NCBI RefSeq assembly: GCF_003096415.1 | Contig: NZ_QEKH01000029.1 | Location: forward strand, 1-64,000 | Reading direction: 5' to 3' | Origin: Victivallis vadensis | GTDB taxonomy: Bacteria > Verrucomicrobiota > Lentisphaeria > Victivallales > Victivallaceae | Length of the DNA stretch: 64,000 nucleotides | Part shown: positions 25,663 through 41,935 of the stretch, one piece after another | Layout of the letters: each line of letters begins with the position of its first letter | Numbering within the stretch: position 1 is the stretch's first letter | Notes under the pieces: generated by a model | Told to the model about the DNA's origin: nothing | The model's input: the letters and a program-made list of their open reading frames with translations, nothing else | Databases searched by the model: none | Made by a program: the position numbers and the translations under genes

Positions 25663-26164
25663 CACCGCGAATCGCCGCCGTCGTGGCGGGAAGCGAAACA
25701 GCTCCTGAAGGACCAGAGCCTGCAATACCTTTGTATCGCGGTACTTCAAGTCGAGCCGAAGAAAAATCACGGCTGGCCGGAATCTTCGCCTGTTTTGAAC
25801 CCCTCTGTCGTGAAAGGGGCCTGAAACTGCGCATCATTCCGGCGGAACGCGAACTGGACTTTCCGGTATCGGAATGTGTCCGGCCTCCCACCTTCTTTAC
25901 CGAACCGTCTGAAATGCTACGAGGAAGTGATCATGCCGCTGATACGGAGCCTCGGACAGAAACTTTATCATTCTTACGCCGGAACCGGTAGAACGGTTTC
26001 TCATGCTGAAATGCTACGAGGAAGTGATCATGCCGCTGATACGGAGCCTCGGACAGAAACTTTATCATTCTTACGCCGGAACCGGTAGAACGGTTTCTCA
26101 TGAATCAAAGCGGGCCGGATTCCCCTCTTTAGATCAGCGGCAATTCGACAGTTTCCAGACTCCT
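25663..26164. other. gene-free stretch with possible coding relic
   Basis: Between element A and the 3' end of prfH. Reading frames in 25683-25910 are open but change frame without a start or recognisable domain (short peptide stretches such as FACFEPLCRERGLKLR). This may be a decayed gene; I recognise no family. It contains the tandem repeat annotated separately. Confidence 0.3.
25909..26102. repeat. two perfect tandem copies of a 97-bp unit
   Basis: Copy 1 is 25909-26005, copy 2 is 26006-26102; both begin CTGAAATGCTACG and end GGTTTCTCATG, with no difference seen. The unit length is not a multiple of three, so it would break any reading frame, arguing for recent slippage or unequal exchange in non-coding DNA. 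A weak hairpin (GGAACCG/CGGTTTC) closes each unit. Confidence 0.9.
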
Positions 26165-26779
26165 CTACAGTTCATCTTCCCGGAACACCCGGACCGGCTT
26201 GCCGCGTTCCAGCTCCCGGTGCGCCCGCCATGCCTCCAGGCCGAGCCGGGCGGAACCGGCGCTGCCGCGCGTCGCCACTTTCGCCGCCAGCCGCGCCAGC
26301 GCCAGCTCCCGGTTGCGCAACTGCGAGCGTTCCTCGCCTGCAACCGCGCACTGGCCGGTCGGACGATGGAACGCCTGAATCCGGGTGTTGCTGGTATTCA
26401 CGTGCTGTCCGCCCGGCCCGCTTGAACGCGACGCCGAAAACTCCACGTCGTTCGGATCGAACGCCAGTTCCGGCTCCGCCTCAAAGAGCCGGATTCCGGC
26501 ATACCAGTTGCGCCGTTTGTGATGGGGGCGGAACGGACTGGCGGCGATCCACTGAATCGTCCCCAGCCACGGCGCGACCGACACGGCCGCGCCCTCCCCT
26601 TCCAGCTCGAACAGCACCGATTTGACCAGCGACTTTTCCCGGTTGCCATTCAACGCCACCTCGCGGAAGCGCACCTCCCGCCGCAGCTCCGAAGTCAGGC
26701 GTACCATCAGTTTCGCGACCAGAAGCTCGCACTCCTCCGGTCCCTGCCCGGAGGAGATTTCCAGAAACAACCGCTTCAT
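26165..26779 (-). CDS. prfH: PrfH-type peptide chain release factor homologue
   Basis: A 204-residue protein with the catalytic GGQ at 123-125 within SSGPGGQHVN, and an RF-like basic C-terminus, but too short for the codon-recognition domain of RF1/RF2. It starts 1 bp after the rtcB stop, so the two are translationally linked. The rtcB2-prfH pairing is known: PrfH releases peptides from ribosomes whose 16S rRNA decoding centre was cut, and RtcB2 reseals the rRNA. The function here is inferred from this pairing. Confidence 0.9.
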   Translation of the reverse strand: MKRLFLEISSGQGPEECELLVAKLMVRLTSELRREVRFREVALNGNREKSLVKSVLFELEGEGAAVSVAPWLGTIQWIAASPFRPHHKRRNWYAGIRLFEAEPELAFDPNDVEFSASRSSGPGGQHVNTSNTRIQAFHRPTGQCAVAGEERSQLRNRELALARLAAKVATRGSAGSARLGLEAWRAHRELERGKPVRVFREDEL

Positions 26780-26780
26780 C

Positions 26781-27875
26781 TCATTCCCCCTCCTTCGGAC
26801 TCTTCCAGGTCAGCACCGGCCTCAACACGCCGATCACCCGGATCACTCCGGCGGCGGCGAGGTCGTCCACCACCGTTTCGATGTTTTTATACGCCTCGGG
26901 CGCCTCTTCATAGAGCAGCTGCCGGTCGGAGCAGACCACCACGCTGCCGAGCCGGGTGCGTTTCAGGTTCTCCGGCTTGAAGCGCGTTTCCAGCCGGGAA
27001 CGGGTTCCCTGCCGGTTCCACTTGCGTCCGGCCCCGTGCGCCGCCGACCAGAGGTTGCGGGATTGCTCCCCCGCCGGTTCAACCAGATAGCTGAATGTGC
27101 CGCGCGAGCCCGCGATCACGAAAGGAGCTCCCTCCGCCGTCGCCGCCGTCCCCTTGCGGTGAATCCAGCCGGAACCGGCGGGAGCGGGCAGGATGCTGTT
27201 ATGGCAGTTGTCCGAAACCAGTTCCCCTTCCCCTCCCGCCGCCGCCAGGAAGCCGGCGGCGATCAGGCGGCGGTTCAGCTTCGCCCACTCCAGCAGCCGA
27301 TCGTGGGCGGCGAGATATTTCCGGCCCGGTTCGCTTTCGGGAACCAGGCCTCCTTTCGGCGTCCGTTCCAGCAGCGCCTGACCGTGCCCACGGCTGCCCG
27401 AATGAACCAGCAGCCAGAGGTTCCTGCGGTCGATTCCGAGCGTTTCCGCCCGAACCGGATCACGCACCTCCTCGAAACCGGTCAGTTCGACGAAATGGTT
27501 GCCGCGCCCGGCCGTGCCGAGGTCACGCCGCAGCCACGCCGGCCACTGTGCCGGAAATTCATACTCCGGCGTTTCGGGAAGATGGGCGAGCAGCCGGCGT
27601 TCCAGTTTCGCCGCCTTGAATTTTCCGGCCGCGAGGCCGGTGCGAAAGAGGGCGATGCCGCAGCCGACGTCCCCGCCCGCCAGTTCGGGATAGATCACGC
27701 CTTCGCTGAGCAGCGCCGCCCCCACTGGAGCGGAAAGCCCCGGATGCAGGTCCGGCATTCCCGCCGCGGCGATCATGCCGGGCAGTTCCGCGGCGCGTTT
27801 GAGCTGTTCGACGGCCCGCCCCTCCATCCAGGTCGAGGCGGAATGAAAAAAGACAATCTTGTCCTGTGTATTCAA
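26781..27875 (-). CDS. rtcB: RtcB-family RNA ligase (RtcB2-like)
   Basis: A 364-residue protein when begun at TTG 27875. This start is chosen because CCGGAG lies 10 nt upstream; an earlier in-frame TTG at 27899 has no site. Conserved RtcB motifs: GGDVGCGIALF with a metal-binding Cys, GRGNHFVEL, VHSGSRGHG, IAGSRGTFSYLV, and AAHGAGRK, whose His is the expected nucleophile for GMP transfer. It joins 2',3'-cyclic phosphate and 5'-OH RNA ends using GTP and Mn. It is coupled to prfH, pointing to rRNA repair. Upstream lies a leader ORF with an RNA switch-like region. Confidence 0.9.
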   Translation of the reverse strand: MNTQDKIVFFHSASTWMEGRAVEQLKRAAELPGMIAAAGMPDLHPGLSAPVGAALLSEGVIYPELAGGDVGCGIALFRTGLAAGKFKAAKLERRLLAHLPETPEYEFPAQWPAWLRRDLGTAGRGNHFVELTGFEEVRDPVRAETLGIDRRNLWLLVHSGSRGHGQALLERTPKGGLVPESEPGRKYLAAHDRLLEWAKLNRRLIAAGFLAAAGGEGELVSDNCHNSILPAPAGSGWIHRKGTAATAEGAPFVIAGSRGTFSYLVEPAGEQSRNLWSAAHGAGRKWNRQGTRSRLETRFKPENLKRTRLGSVVVCSDRQLLYEEAPEAYKNIETVVDDLAAAGVIRVIGVLRPVLTWKSPKEGE

Positions 27876-27882
27876 AATAGAA

Positions 27883-27994
27883 ATTCTCCGGAAATACAAT
27901 TACAGTGAATAAAAAGCAGAAACCCGCCGATCACTGACCGGAGAATGCAAGAGGCAAAAGAAGCACACCGCCGCAGACCGGCTCAGTCGATCGG
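27883..27994 (-). promoter_or_regulatory. putative leader-peptide attenuator controlling rtcB translation
   Basis: Two mutually exclusive pairings are readable on the minus strand. (1) 27994-27978 (end of the leader ORF, including its stop codon) pairs with 27941-27927: 15 Watson-Crick pairs with two bulged G. (2) ATTCTCCGG (27946-27938) pairs perfectly with CCGGAGAAT (27891-27883), which contains the rtcB Shine-Dalgarno. They share 27941-27938. A ribosome on the leader end would block pairing 1 and favour hiding the rtcB site; loss of leader translation would free it. A T-rich tract (27920-27910) leaves premature termination as an alternative. Folding energies were not computed. Confidence 0.55.
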
Positions 27995-28027
27995 AAGACC
28001 CGCAAGTTTTGAAGTGAAGTTCGACAT
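27983..28027 (-). CDS. 14-residue leader peptide upstream of rtcB
   Basis: ATG at 28027 with a near-perfect GGAGGT (28038-28033) 5 nt upstream encodes MSNFTSKLAGLPID and a TGA stop at 27985-27983. A consensus promoter lies 32 bp before it. It is too short for a functional enzyme; its last codons form one arm of a 15-bp RNA helix, so a cis-acting role in rtcB-prfH control is the likely purpose. Such small ORFs are easily missed by gene callers. Confidence 0.6.
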   Translation of the reverse strand: MSNFTSKLAGLPID

Positions 28028-28058
28028 TATGCACCTCCATTGAAGTTAAAACCGCTTT

Positions 28059-28087
28059 ACTATACCATTCGGACAGCGTGGTGTCAA
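28059..28087 (-). promoter_or_regulatory. consensus promoter of the leader-rtcB-prfH unit
   Basis: Minus strand TTGACA (28087-28082), 17-bp spacer, TATAGT (28064-28059). It is divergent from the MFS promoter 33 bp away. The expected transcript starts near 28052 and includes the leader ORF. Confidence 0.75.
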
Positions 28088-29474: not shown

Positions 29475-29571
29475 CGCTTTACCCGCTTTTACCGGAGCGG
29501 CCACCTGCCTCCGGCGGTCCGGAGCGCTTCGCCCCCGGAACCCCAGACCGGCAAGGTGCCGGCGCCGGGTA

Positions 29572-29610
29572 CGGTTTCGAGGTTTTTGCTGCGCAAAAAC
29601 CTCGAAACCG
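29572..29610. other. 18-bp perfect hairpin
   Basis: Arms 29572-29589 and 29593-29610 are exact complements with loop TGC; the arm contains GGTTTCGAGG and a T5 run. It lies about 100 bp downstream of the MFS stop and abuts an element C core. It may act as a transcript end, but no U-run follows the stem. Confidence 0.7.
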
Positions 29611-30300
29611 GGTTGATGGATAAGGCTGAATCACCATTGGTGCGGCGTGTAATAAGGCCAAAACGCCATTTACACAGCGCACAAATAAGGCTGCAAGGTC
29701 ACTTATGCGGTACATAAATAAGGCTGCAAGGCCATTTACGCGGCGCACAACAAGCGCGGGCGGCAAGGTGCCGCCGCCGAGTGCGCACGCCAATGCCCCT
29801 CCGGGGGGCGTGCGGCGGCTGGCACGCGCAAAGCATGGTCGGTCTGTATCACCACTTATACAGTACATAAATAAGGCTGCATCACCACTTACGCGGCGCA
29901 CAACAAGCGCGGTCAGCGCCGCGAACGGCGGCAAGGTGCCGCCGCCGGGTACGCACGCCAATGCCCCTCCGGGGGGCGGGCGGGCAACTAGTACAGGCAA
30001 GGCATCGGTCGGTCTGTATCACCACTTATACAGTACATAAATAAGGCTGCATCACCACTTACGCGGCGCACAACAAGCGCGGTCAGCGCCGCGAACGAAT
30101 GTGAGGGAATTACTTGCCTCTGGCAAGTAACGAGGAACGATAGTGACGAAGCCGAACGTAGTGAGCGAAGCCCCTCCGGCGTAGTGAGCGTAGCGAACGG
30201 TGAGGAGTTGGCCGCCGCAGGCGGACAAGTAAGCGGCGAAGCCGCGCCCGCGAGCGGAAGTGCTCCGCAAACAGACCAGCCTCCGCCATCGGCGAGGGGG

Positions 30301-41845: not shown

Positions 41846-41849
41846 AAGT

Positions 41850-41935
41850 CCTCAAGGACCACAGCAGGTGAATCATGGTGAAATTCCGTGGCTGTCGCGC
41901 AACCGTATAGTCGGATCCCGCGCTGAGGTCGAATT
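41850..41935 (+). ncRNA. cobalamin riboswitch
   Basis: The conserved core is readable: AGGTGAAT, then GGTGAAATTCC, then GCTGTCGCGCAACCGTA (about 41866-41908), matching the B12-box order of adenosylcobalamin riboswitches. ACAGC before the core pairs with GCTGT after it. It lies between a promoter and the first gene of the operon, so adenosylcobalamin should lower expression of the whole run. 3' boundary and expression platform are not resolved; no obvious terminator precedes 42007, so translational control is likely. Confidence 0.8.

Follow-up and report, generated by a model that had tools for sequence, protein, structure and literature searches.

In trp-type attenuators, and in the translation attenuators of erm and cat genes, a leader RNA carries overlapping arms, and the position of a ribosome on a leader ORF picks the fold. 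Translation stress is likewise sensed by the toiL uORF of the Escherichia coli topAI-yjhQ operon, which gates a downstream Shine-Dalgarno (SD) sequence; the uORF itself pairs with this SD, which becomes accessible when a ribosome stalls (PMC12121999). The closest described system is PA5471.1 of Pseudomonas aeruginosa, a 13-amino-acid leader upstream of armZ and prfH, whose incomplete translation switches the operon on (PMC3516279, PMC13041342, PMC12057347). Specifically, deletion of the leader or an early nonsense mutation in it raises ArmZ (PMC13041342), and ribosome-targeting drugs induce the operon (PMC12057347). ArmZ additionally induces the MexXY efflux pump, and a 2025 review described PA5471.1-type regulation as apparently unique to MexXY (PMC12057347). 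In E. coli, RtcB2-PrfH guards against cleavage of 16S rRNA by colicin E3 (PMC9223846; Tian et al., 2022, cited in PMC10502375, is a further source on the pair). The enzymes of E. coli ATCC 25922 are the same pair as those studied here, and their description makes no mention of a leader (PMC9223846). The open-access literature searched names no rtcB-prfH leader outside P. aeruginosa, earlier mention elsewhere being possible.

We analysed a 64,000-nucleotide stretch of the Victivallis vadensis genome (contig NZ_QEKH01000029.1, positions 1 to 64,000), hereafter the window, which carries the single rtcB-prfH operon of this genome. The operon and its leader comprise the following features:

28059..28087, minus strand: sigma-70-type promoter, TTGACA-17-TATAGT with TG before the -10 (sequence and promoter scan)
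28032..28038, minus strand: leader Shine-Dalgarno GGAGGTG (sequence; identical in loci L113, L114, L115 and L117)
27983..28027, minus strand: leader ORF of 14 codons, MSNFTSKLAGLPID, with ATG at 28027 and stop codon UGA (ORF and relatives)
27978..28004, minus strand: 5' arm of helix 1, formed by the leader ORF end and stop codon (helix energy test)
27938..27946, minus strand: anti-SD ATTCTCCGG, overlapping the 3' arm of helix 1 (sequence; P = 0.008)
27914..27941, minus strand: 3' arm of helix 1, core 27941-27927 (helix energy test)
27915..27928, minus strand: weak terminator-like hairpin with T-rich tail, doubtful, a possible transcriptional output (hairpin scan; counterpart in L113)
27883..27891, minus strand: rtcB Shine-Dalgarno region CCGGAGAAT (sequence and folding models)
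26781..27875, minus strand: rtcB2, RNA ligase RtcB family, TTG start at 27875 (PRK09588, TIGR03073)
26165..26779, minus strand: prfH, peptide chain release factor H, GGQ motif (TIGR03072)

A preliminary description of this DNA had named the downstream genes as rtcB and prfH, and profile searches agree: rtcB2 matched TIGR03073 and PRK09588 with 361.6 bits (cut-off 271.8) and 413.1 bits (cut-off 407), respectively, and prfH, which starts 1 nt past the rtcB2 stop codon, matched TIGR03072 with 187.2 bits (curated cut-off 166.65). The leader sits between rtcB and a divergent transporter-like gene (start 28173). Its promoter agrees with the consensus at 11 of 12 positions, and the leader region holds three promoter-like sites, compared with 0.2 in shuffled sequences. 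An Rfam scan gave no family match at gathering score at the leader; the sole match above this score, an AdoCbl-II riboswitch, lies away from it at 41849-41929. Other elements of the window are a perfect 97-nt tandem duplication directly downstream of prfH (25909-26102) and a cluster of imperfect direct repeats at 29549-30097, with units of 34-91 nt in 3-6 copies.

Two pairings can form in the leader RNA. The core of helix 1 joins CCGATCgACTGAgCCGG (27994-27978) to CCGGTCAGTGATCGG (27941-27927) by 15 pairs with two one-base bulges, and the full helix extends over about 28004-27978 and 27941-27914. The anti-SD (27946-27938), in turn, is the exact complement, over 9 nt, of the rtcB SD region (27891-27883). 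Because nucleotides 27941-27938 are common to both, the two helices can never be complete at the same time. The near-consensus promoter, the ORF with its strong SD and the two exclusive pairings had all been proposed before, and each was borne out at the coordinates given. GACCTC or (C)ACTTC just upstream of the leader SD, present in L115 and L117 and weaker in the window and L113, could pair with the leader's GGAGGTG as a possible second gate, controlling initiation on the leader.

GC-rich leaders may pair by chance, and the stability of the whole window leader is indeed ordinary compared with shuffles (z = -0.55). This is no argument against a switch, and the individual helices stand out: when the downstream stretch was dinucleotide-shuffled 500 times, helix 1 (-30.9 kcal/mol) reached the floor of the test (P = 0.002), and the anti-SD:SD helix (-14.6) gave P = 0.008. 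Over 29 leader loci the combined values were P = 4e-15 for helix 1 and P = 1.5e-7 for anti-SD:SD, figures that are optimistic in that some loci are near kin. The ORF itself is also unusual, since a short ORF of 8-20 codons with a strong SD (≥ 7 nt) in a leader-like position was found upstream of just 1 of 151 control genes, i.e. other genes within the window and the fetched loci; lowering the SD threshold to 5 nt raised this to nine. Coincidental pairing is thus a most improbable account of the locus.

Folding calculations in which a ribosome masks part of the leader returned the two alternative folds that the preliminary description had drawn. In these equilibrium models, which assume the ribosome footprints, the predicted unpaired probability of the rtcB SD was 0.41 with the ribosome at the leader start and 0.02 with the ribosome at the leader stop; when the leader end alone was shuffled, the opening of the SD averaged 0.04 (P = 0.01). 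We propose, with a probability of about 0.8, that the leader ORF serves as an attenuator tying rtcB-prfH expression to translation failure. As long as ribosomes finish the leader, they would cover its end, leaving the downstream arm free and the rtcB start sealed. Should initiation or elongation on the leader fail, owing to cleaved 16S rRNA or to toxins or antibiotics that target the ribosome, the arm would be trapped by the leader end, and those ribosomes that remain, or that work slowly, would translate rtcB-prfH. A natural trigger could be a ribosome cut at the decoding site, which would still be able to initiate but unable to elongate. What is sensed would be the progress of a ribosome across an RNA element rather than a specific peptide. 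The leader anatomy, the exclusive helices, and their conservation and covariation described below can be read from the sequences themselves; that a translated leader means off is what we infer, backed by the genetics of the homologous operon in P. aeruginosa.

This kind of control is already known from PA5471.1, so the earlier view of a new type of control did not hold. The P. aeruginosa operon is homologous (PA5471, armZ, of the PRK09588 RtcB family, followed by PA5470, prfH) and uses alternative RNA pairings and a leader of 13 codons, against 14 in the window, the comparison being drawn from the published accounts. Like PA5471.1, the window leader is a short, well-initiated ORF upstream of rtcB-prfH with exclusive helices, the first of which overlaps the leader end. 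The outputs may differ: a transcription terminator is proposed for PA5471.1, whereas the window combines an exact anti-SD pairing at the rtcB SD with a weak hairpin. Start-site sealing at rtcB, breadth across phyla, and conservation of RNA rather than peptide appear to be new. The toiL arrangement is set apart by the additional anti-SD arm in the window, trapped by the leader end, and by the absence of a ribosome there, rather than its stalling, as the condition that would open the SD. The arm logic of trp, erm and cat leaders is the same, but MSNFTSKLAGLPID has neither a series of regulatory codons nor a conserved stalling peptide, and the signal would be general translation failure. Our genome search for a Pseudomonas copy yielded a single match in the order searched (L178 in genome G824), with a strong PrfH match and RtcB2 undetectable upstream.

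Within the Lentisphaeria, prfH is present in 18 of 198 genomes. Leader anatomy was recognized upstream of rtcB in L113, L114, L115, L117, L160 and L165, with unrelated arm sequences. The four closest relatives (L113, L114, L115 and L117) have a leader ORF of 12-14 codons preceded by GGAGGTG; in all five loci including the window the leader ends in UGA and the rtcB start is apparently TTG. L113, from the same genus, with an RtcB that is 71% identical, is the closest relative and the only close one sharing the window's lineage; it carries MNRTTAKLVPAFAG with GGAGGTGA. Elsewhere the arms are unrelated in sequence yet complementary, e.g. in L115, where UCCGCUGAAGAG matches CUCUCCUGCGGA, and in L114, whose helix is long, and the more distant L160 and L165 have leader, helix and anti-SD. 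By itself, helix 1 was non-significant in L115 (P = 0.64) and L117 (P = 0.69). The predicted opening of the SD was seen in the window, L113, L115 and L165, was absent in L114 and L160, and was no better than shuffles in L117. The on/off logic put forward in the preliminary description is supported by the recurring anatomy, the compensatory changes in Gammaproteobacteria and the P. aeruginosa genetics, but the SD opening fails to follow it in these three loci. Its expectation that relatives would share a short ORF and covarying arms held for leaders in several phyla and for covariation in Gammaproteobacteria, but not for 8 of 15 Lentisphaeria upstream regions, in which a scan found no leader.

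Leaders recur outside this class. In four Clostridia loci (L063, L067, L071 and L076), the end of the leader resembles the rtcB SD (GAGAGAATATAG), such that one anti-SD can pair with either, and the SD opening drops from 0.27-0.80 to 0.00-0.01 when the leader stop is occupied; across Lentisphaeria and Clostridia the SD-opening test gave a combined P = 7e-6. Alphaproteobacterial loci have leaders of 13-16 codons with weaker helix support. As a universal feature the leader was ruled out, since the scan detected none in 26 of 27 upstream regions from Desulfobacterota, Melainabacteria, Planctomycetota and similar groups. On the RtcB tree the leader label requires 13 changes, at least seven of them on well-supported branches, and must therefore have been gained or lost repeatedly.

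Not every such leader need act on the SD. As proposed for PA5471.1 (PMC13041342), the same switch could work by transcription attenuation, its downstream arm feeding an intrinsic terminator instead of the rtcB SD. Clear terminator-like hairpins follow the leaders of Clostridia loci L065, L075, L078 and L080, and in L113 a GC-rich 8-bp hairpin followed by CTTATTTTCT lies within the 3' arm of helix 1, such that the output of the L113 switch may be transcriptional. In some relatives the competition probably feeds a terminator. For the window this is unlikely as the explanation: its hairpin comprises five pairs, of which three are GC, the T-tract falls within a larger hairpin predicted for the sealed state, and the exact 9-nt anti-SD:SD pairing would be left without a role. 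Given the L113 hairpin, the output in the window may nevertheless be transcriptional too, so that the attenuator we favour may act on translation, transcription or both.

The Gammaproteobacteria permitted a column-by-column count of covariation, which we confined to this group because the Lentisphaeria arms are too diverged for alignment. Each of the 15 full-length RtcB2 operons fetched from one Enterobacterales-type order carries a leader, 12-14 codons in length. The three Gammaproteobacterial PrfH loci L235-L237, where RtcB shares only 26-29% identity with the E. coli RtcB2 and no leader could be recognized, were not counted among them. Nearly all of these leaders contain TTTGC(A/G)G, which pairs with a CCTGCCAAT-like arm, and the CCAAT of this arm can pair with the rtcB SD GGAATTGG. 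The same anatomy is found in E. coli, Proteus, a Klebsiella IncC plasmid and Aquitalea; the E. coli operon (L194, L186) has a 15-codon leader ORF and both helices. In the Gammaproteobacterial helix, 6 of 10 pairs were changed on both sides in some sequence. Double-change cells numbered 17, compared with 6.4 after shuffling (0/500) and 0-2 in slid controls, in an alignment that was built from the arms and leans towards structure, as do the arms of L219, L220, L226 and L234, set by hand from their GCC(A/G)AT or CCTGCC context after automatic choice had failed. Depending on the leader, the motif CTTTGCAGG is translated as Leu-Cys-Arg or, in another frame, as Phe-Ala-Gly; therefore RNA rather than peptide is conserved.

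These data bear on what the leader might encode. In a drug- or peptide-specific stalling leader of the erm or toiL type, nascent peptide and ligand would arrest the ribosome at one leader codon; length and position of the window leader are typical of this class, and the P. aeruginosa homologue is induced by drugs that target the ribosome (PMC12057347). We consider this very unlikely, given that the Lentisphaeria leaders share no peptide sequence, that the Gammaproteobacterial motif is read in two frames, and that deletion of the leader alone activates the P. aeruginosa operon (PMC13041342). No conserved stalling peptide was found in the leaders of either group, and a peptide-sensing leader was rejected for this missing conservation. 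Still less likely is a functional small protein as the product of the ORF, with the hairpins incidental: its SD and start codon are good, but its peptide is conserved only among near kin, and the helices are conserved and covary.

With ribosome progress across the RNA as the preferred signal, translation-failure leaders would seem, on balance, to regulate 16S rRNA repair operons in many bacterial groups, with PA5471.1 as one case and not a speciality of MexXY. The range would include Lentisphaeria, Clostridia and Alpha-, Beta- and Gammaproteobacteria, with nearly all E. coli, and perhaps Actinobacteria; only the RNA competition would be kept, while arms and peptides change, as does the output, be it start-site sealing or a terminator. 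If so, the repair system would stay silent until ribosomes are damaged, with translation failure itself as the signal, and a regulator known from one drug-efflux context would turn out to govern rRNA repair more generally.

In Actinobacteria (L079-L111), 20 of 27 loci keep ATGACGT(A/T)CTGA or ATGATGCTCTGA approximately 50-150 nt upstream of rtcB2, directly at a conserved promoter-like stretch. This element resembles a leaderless ORF of three codons (Met-Thr-Tyr/Phe or Met-Met-Leu). Several loci have GTTCT or GCTCT complementary to AGAAC or AGAGC near the rtcB start, and the topology may be reversed. Support for a helix is weak (combined P = 0.01), and the mini-ORF was excluded from the main argument.

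A match to the leader-region DNA is present in 5,360 of 5,426 complete E. coli genomes, which makes the control directly testable in this species. In many E. coli (L238, L239, L241 and L243), an insert of ∼55-127 bp separates the anti-SD from the rtcB2 SD, and K-12 retains an intact leader with broken rtcB2 and prfH. In L184 (Thorsellia), an 18-codon ORF with GGAGG (MSQTTCISHKVNRVGQDS; positions 757-813), located ∼400 nt upstream of rtcB2 and hence farther than in its kin, may be a displaced leader. On the Klebsiella IncC conjugative plasmid (L185), rtcB2-prfH and the leader adjoin sul1. Finally, in L222 (G1089) rtcB2 is apparently mostly deleted, and the leader persists with a compensated helix (GCAAGCC:GGCTTGC).
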